A stretch of DNA of 64,000 bases, from positions 434,001 through 498,000 of the forward strand of contig CATQHQ010000002.1 of NCBI GenBank assembly GCA_958296005.1. Reading direction: 5' to 3'. A program made the translations under genes and the position numbers. Below, one piece after another: positions 47,210 to 47,784 of the stretch; position 1 is the first letter of the stretch; the number at the start of each line of letters is the position of its first letter. The DNA comes from Longimicrobiales bacterium (lineage in GTDB: Bacteria; Gemmatimonadota; Gemmatimonadetes; Longimicrobiales; Gaopeijiaceae). Under the pieces are notes generated by a model. It had not been told where the DNA came from and made no database searches. It saw only the letters and a program-made list of their open reading frames with translations.

Positions 47210-47784
47210 GAAGCGGAGGTTGCGTCTATCGCCGCCGCCAGCTCCTCGTAGGCGGCCGGGTCCACCTGATTGAACTGGGGGATCACCTTCGCGACCCGCC
47301 CGTCGGGTCCCACGACGATCACCGCGCGGCTGTCCACCATCCCGTTGTCCCGAAGCCCCCCGCCGAACGCCTCGTAGGACGCCCCGTTGTTTTCGGCGTC
47401 GCTTCCGAAGAGGAAGGGGAAGTCCTCGTCCTTCAGCCAGGAGGCCAGCTCCTCCGGCGAGTCGTTGGAGACGCCCAGCAGCACGACGTTCCGGCCCTCG
47501 TTGAACAGCTCTGCGTACTGATCACGGTACGCTCTCATTTGGACCGTTCAGCCACGCGTCCTTACACGAAAGAAGAACGCCAGGACCACCGTCTTCCCCC
47601 GGTAGTCGCTGAGCCGGATCTTGTCCCGCAGGACACCGTGGCGGGTCGCGCCCGTCATCTCGATCTCGGGCGCCATCGCGCCCACCTCGACGAGGCCCAT
47701 GCCCGCCTCCTGCGCCTTCGCGCCGTCCGGCGACGCCGCAACCGTCGTGGCGAGCGCCAAGGCAACCAGCATCGATCTACGCAT
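47206..47784 (-). CDS. Exported peroxiredoxin-like protein, candidate selenoprotein (TGA/Sec at codon 79)
   Basis: ORFs 47548-47784 and 47206-47538 are in the same frame, separated by TGA: ...LSDYRGKTVVLAFFFRVRTRG-[TGA]-TVQMRAYRDQYAELFNEGRNVVLLGVSNDSPEELASWLKDEDFPFLFGSDAENNGAS...; BCP/AhpC-type proteins have Cys at that position (T-x-G-C-T). Signal peptide at N-terminus. Confidence 0.8.
47513..47532 (-). promoter_or_regulatory. Candidate bacterial SECIS stem-loop
   Basis: mRNA: UGA-ACGGUCCAAAUGAGA-GCGUAC-CGUGAUCA-GUACGC; perfect 6-bp stem starting 16 nt after UGA, 8-nt apical loop with G at position 2. Confidence 0.65.

Follow-up and report, generated by a model that had tools for sequence, protein, structure and literature searches.

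How is a peroxiredoxin gene translated when it is interrupted by an in-frame TGA codon, and does the small hairpin immediately downstream of that codon take part? The question is raised by a gene of the AhpC/TSA type in a window of 64,000 nucleotides (the whole stretch analysed, positions 434,001 to 498,000 of contig CATQHQ010000002.1) from a 3.06 Mb genome of the phylum Gemmatimonadota. A sequence-only reading of the window had proposed that the hairpin is a bacterial selenocysteine insertion sequence (bSECIS). We conclude that this hairpin, at positions 47532-47513 of the minus strand, is almost certainly the bSECIS for the UGA at codon 79. The mechanism is already known; this particular element is new and unusually frozen.

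The gene (47784-47209, minus strand) contains only one in-frame TGA and its read-through product is 192 residues long. The TGA is spanned both by an AhpC-TSA match (PF00578, E 9.6e-21, 74.4 bits against a cut-off of 26) and by a Redoxin match (PF08534, E 2.4e-14). The hairpin, GCGUAC-CGUGAUCA-GUACGC, is as first described: a perfect 6-bp stem beginning 16 nt after the UGA and an 8-nt loop with G at position 2. It overlaps the codons for AYRDQYA (+6 to +12 after the selenocysteine, Sec or U). In the published bSECIS model, an upper stem of 4-16 bp carries an apical loop of 3-9 nt in which G stands at one of the first two positions and the next base is mostly G or U; the loop lies 16-37 nt from the UGA and the minimum free energy (MFE) is at most -7.5 kcal/mol (PMC13188914). 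The distance from UGA to loop is 21 nt here, so the canonical placement claimed in the sequence-only reading is borne out.

The evidence that carries this interpretation comes from homologues. A peroxiredoxin homologue was found in 322 of 395 genomes of the phylum, with exactly one TGA in nearly all of the best matches listed, and our alignment includes 153 distinct TGA forms together with 30 forms that have Cys at the same position. The reading frame is intact on both sides of the TGA in all 153 TGA forms, and each has a spacer of 15 nt between UGA and hairpin. The exact 20-mer occurs in 143 of them compared with none of the 30 Cys forms, and 152 retain the 6-bp stem, as does a single Cys form. 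Loop positions 2 and 3 are G followed by U or G in 153/153 TGA forms (7/30 Cys forms), the loop starting with CG[U/G] or UGU in every case. The loop Arg codon provides an example of this restriction: CGC, the commonest choice in the Cys forms (23/30), is absent from the TGA forms (CGU 147, CGG 5, UGU 1). In one homologue (L188) the loop Arg has become Cys, but the codon is TGT and the G-U of the loop is retained.

Silent sites behave in the same way. At positions with the same amino acid, codons +6 to +11 agree in 98.1% of divergent pairs of TGA forms (58.5% expected), and in 60.8% for the Cys forms (59.5% expected). For windows elsewhere in the TGA genes, the excess of codon identity has a mean of 0.017, a standard deviation of 0.033 and a maximum of 0.104. 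On a tree of length 40 built without the hairpin region, the six hairpin codons require 0, 0, 4, 3, 0 and 0 Fitch steps, against a mean of 38.2 and a minimum of 5 for 32 other conserved codons; on the Cys-form tree, codons at the hairpin positions change as often as others. The amino acids are affected as well. Identity at matched divergence (Sec/Cys) is 0.98/0.24 for Ala+6, 0.99/0.22 for Gln+10, 1.00/0.50 for Tyr+11 and 1.00/0.47 for Ala+12, and the biggest Sec-Cys difference among all 7-residue windows is at +6 to +12, coinciding with the hairpin. By this comparison the putative RNA element constrains the protein, its residues being frozen only in the Sec forms.

Several genomes of family f5 carry tandem Sec and Cys paralogues (G027:C19, G057:C14, G063:C7, G168:C146 and G182:C89), with the hairpin in the Sec copy only. 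Three records titled Gammaproteobacteria (L076, L078 and L079) carry the Gemmatimonadota peroxiredoxin gene; at any rate the label of L076 is probably wrong. On plasmids, tblastn retrieved distant peroxiredoxins only, with no more than 37% identity among the matches listed.

Clearly, the hairpin exceeds chance only by comparison among homologues, where it does so very strongly; a single sequence is insufficient. When AYRDQYA is back-translated at random under family codon usage, 28% of draws give a perfect 6-bp stem (0.6% the exact 20-mer), and the earlier supposition that such a stem would hardly arise by chance therefore fails for the window sequence alone. The hairpin does fold as drawn: the isolated 20-mer has an MFE of -7.0 kcal/mol (z -2.3) and the 46-nt segment starting at the UGA one of -8.5 kcal/mol. 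Its excess over codon-shuffled controls, another check suggested at the time, is not significant, since 6.7% of versions of the window gene with all codons shuffled match or exceed the observed hairpin probability. Segments of 46-71 nt have unremarkable folding z values of -0.25 to -1.06. These single-sequence figures are consistent with the TGA being a normal stop codon or an artefact of sequencing or assembly in a broken gene, and with the hairpin being a by-product of the AYRDQYA codons. Such an explanation is already refuted by the conservation across the phylum, and we give it next to no chance: it does not account for 153 distinct homologues that retain the TGA and an intact frame on either side of it, nor for silent hairpin sites frozen in TGA forms only. 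In addition, selA scores above cut-off in each of the 40 genomes tested that carry the Sec form, compared with 14 of 40 that lack it (Fisher 6e-11).

The source genome itself encodes selA, a selB with SelB-wing_2, SelB-wing_3 and SelB beta-barrel domains, a tRNA-Sec with anticodon TCA, and selD, which itself contains a TGA. Of 395 genomes of the phylum, 221 contain the 20-mer, and an equal number contain the pattern TGA-N15-20-mer; a reversed control pattern was found in 0 of the 395. Freezing in TGA forms only, fixed spacing to the TGA, complete Sec machinery and bSECIS geometry together make a bSECIS by far the best reading, and the proposal made from the sequence alone is supported on each of these counts.

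The conservation nevertheless extends beyond what a structure alone would need. At stem pairs G3-C18 and C6-G15 a silent change is possible in both codons through G-U wobble steps, but none is seen in 153 sequences. This, and the fact that the 20-mer is an inverted repeat, could point to a different nucleic-acid role (binding of a protein to the DNA, processing of the mRNA or another kind of regulation), the Sec codon being served by some other element. We regard this as very improbable. Requiring a TGA at exactly 15 nt before the 20-mer leaves the number of genomes that have it unchanged, neither the Cys orthologues nor the tandem Cys paralogues contain the 20-mer, its geometry fits the bSECIS model, and RNAalifold detects no other conserved structure near the UGA. 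The same invariance may instead mean that SelB of the Gemmatimonadota reads its SECIS by base sequence, in addition to hairpin shape and loop G, and that sequence-specific recognition of the stem dictates AYRDQYA. This is possible, although we consider it rather unlikely. If true, the known mechanism would have a variant here, with a SECIS that dictates protein sequence and locks seven residues that are partly free in the Cys forms.

The sequence-only reading had also noted a lower pairing that encloses the UGA (CUGA-ACGGU with ACCGU-GA-UCAG). It can indeed be drawn in the window, where all nine pairs are possible, and 152 of the 153 homologues allow 7-9 of the nine, mainly because its 3' half sits in the invariant 20-mer. 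If this were the working structure, it would exclude the hairpin. The pairing is not conserved, however: it is complete in only 51/153 sequences and its 5' side varies (ACA, ACC, GAU) without compensation. RNAalifold, applied to 65 non-redundant Sec sequences, returns the competing hairpin alone, with pair probabilities of 0.99-1.0, and returns no structure for the Cys set. We have rejected the UGA-enclosing pairing, which we consider extremely improbable.

Several points weigh against interpreting the hairpin as a bSECIS. The 20-mer alone, at -7.0 kcal/mol, just misses the -7.5 kcal/mol cut-off of the bSECIS model. Its mean pair probability in the context of the window is 0.54, compared with a family mean of 0.80 (81 non-redundant sequences). 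The sample of homologues is confined to the Gemmatimonadota. Finally, conservation in Sec homologues was found as anticipated but covariation was not, because the stem is invariant.

In the folding model, the flanks help the hairpin to fold: synonymous shuffling of the flanking codons lowers the family mean to 0.60, and shuffling of all codons lowers it to 0.25. Spacer codons +1 to +5 have a GC content at third positions of 0.58 (0.85 expected), with AGA used for 48/48 Arg codons at +5 and CAA in 96/153 sequences at +3. Rare codons are strongly favoured around the TGA (-4 to -1 and +1 to +5), for example AGG at -4, CGT at -2, CAA at +3 and AGA at +5, a preference that exceeds the needs of the hairpin itself. 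Low structure around the UGA may be one explanation.

Two further selenoprotein genes in the genome, encoding SelD and a peroxiredoxin-like UxxC protein, each have a hairpin downstream of the TGA. That of the UxxC protein (locus L250), UCAGCUC-GGC-GAGCUGA, is kept in 62 distinct relatives and its loop starts with G then G/U in nearly all. Its basal pair is U-A in 42, G-C in 16 and A-U in 1, a compensatory change. As judged from these sequences, the L250 hairpin lends support to the same mode of reading in this lineage and provides the covariation missing from the invariant peroxiredoxin hairpin. The two resemble each other in the 21-nt distance from UGA to loop, the loop G followed by G/U and the AhpC/TSA fold of the protein. 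They differ in that L250 has a 7-bp stem with a CAGCU core, a 3-nt loop, a compensatory basal pair and a UxxC protein. When up to 3 mismatches were allowed, no copy of the peroxiredoxin 20-mer was found elsewhere in its own genome; being single-copy, it implies that the other selenoproteins there use other hairpins. The 64-kb window contains no Rfam match at the gathering threshold.

In the proposed mechanism, the hairpin would fold in the mRNA 15 nt downstream of the UGA. By analogy with the known bacterial pathway, the winged-helix domains of SelB, carrying Sec-tRNA(Sec) and GTP, would bind it, and the UGA would be decoded as Sec rather than terminating translation after 78 residues. The product, lacking any other Cys, would act as a 1-Sec peroxiredoxin. 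The features involved are listed in Table 1.

Table 1. Features of the Sec peroxiredoxin locus and of two further selenoprotein genes of the same genome
Feature	Position in the window, or locus and offset	Strand	Basis or remark
Sec-containing AhpC/TSA peroxiredoxin gene	47209..47784	-	TGA predicted to be read through as Sec; PF00578 and PF08534 across the TGA; translation
Sec UGA codon (putative)	47548..47550	-	Codon 79; peroxidatic Cys position; aligned with TGC/TGT in 30 Cys and TGA in 153 homologues
Spacer ACGGUCCAAAUGAGA, 15 nt	47533..47547	-	A/U-biased at synonymous sites over homologues
bSECIS stem, 5' arm GCGUAC	47527..47532	-	Sequence, folding, family conservation
bSECIS apical loop CGUGAUCA, 8 nt	47519..47526	-	G at position 2, then U (G in some relatives)
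bSECIS stem, 3' arm GUACGC	47513..47518	-	Sequence, folding, family conservation
Secreted-looking thioredoxin-like protein (WCEQC), convergent neighbour	46610..47209	+	PF08534/PF00085; possible reductant
CcdA/DsbD transmembrane electron carrier, convergent neighbour	45877..46599	+	PF02683, E 2.9e-46
SelD (HGAG-U-ACKLG)	L246, offset 1530	reverse	In-frame TGA, downstream hairpin
Peroxiredoxin-like UxxC protein, AhpC/TSA fold (FYRGHW-U-PWC)	L250, offset 1614	reverse	In-frame TGA, downstream hairpin

The N-terminal leader of the peroxiredoxin resembles a signal peptide and the protein is probably exported. Among 105 loci with flanks, a thioredoxin-like gene lies beside the peroxiredoxin in 69 and a CcdA/DsbD-like gene is nearby in 64. 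Together with the leader, these conserved convergent neighbours suggest a periplasmic enzyme that is perhaps reduced by the CcdA/DsbD-like and thioredoxin-like pair. The convergent arrangement is kept over several families of the phylum, and close relatives are metagenome-assembled genomes labelled Longimicrobiales or Gemmatimonadetes.

The TxxU motif that marks Sec peroxiredoxins is present in the window gene, with Thr three residues before a U that aligns with Cys. The Pro of PxxxTxxC/U is absent and replaced by Phe (codon 72, 47569-47571, 7 residues before U). At this position Pro occurs in 30/30 Cys forms; the 153 Sec forms have Phe (113), Tyr (21) or Pro (17). This Pro is a nearly universal active-site residue, yet it has been lost from most Sec forms.

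A Gemmatimonadota selenoprotein with its SECIS goes unmentioned in a recent review of prokaryotic selenoproteomes (PMC13188914), and a search of titles and abstracts on selenocysteine or selenoproteins in Gemmatimonadetes/Gemmatimonadota returned nothing on this gene. The present analysis adds a well-supported selenoprotein and SECIS to the phylum. It also provides a coding SECIS in which selection on RNA separates cleanly from selection on protein, because Sec and Cys orthologues differ, in both silent sites and amino acids, in exactly the seven hairpin codons. In metagenomes, where gene callers break this gene into two parts at the TGA, the invariant 20-mer can serve as a simple DNA probe for it.

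How does this element compare with known systems? The SECIS of Escherichia coli fdhF is a short upper stem-loop downstream of the UGA, read by SelB, in which a G and a U of the loop are functionally important and the loop begins about 18 nt after the UGA. The hairpin described here is likewise a short upper stem-loop downstream of a UGA with G and U in its loop; it differs in stem sequence, has no single bulged U and places the loop 21 nt after the UGA. Compared with the bSECISearch consensus, the hairpin in isolation falls slightly short of the MFE cut-off. It is otherwise similar, located in frame directly downstream of the Sec UGA with a 6-bp stem, an 8-nt loop, G at loop position 2 followed by U/G, and 21 nt from UGA to loop (PMC13188914). 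Sec-containing peroxiredoxin (Prx, PF00578, TxxU) is among the selenoproteins listed in the same source (PMC13188914). The window gene departs from it in having Phe for the motif Pro (F/Y in 134/153 Sec forms) and agrees with it in the AhpC/TSA fold, the TxxU motif and the predicted placement of Sec at the peroxidatic Cys position.
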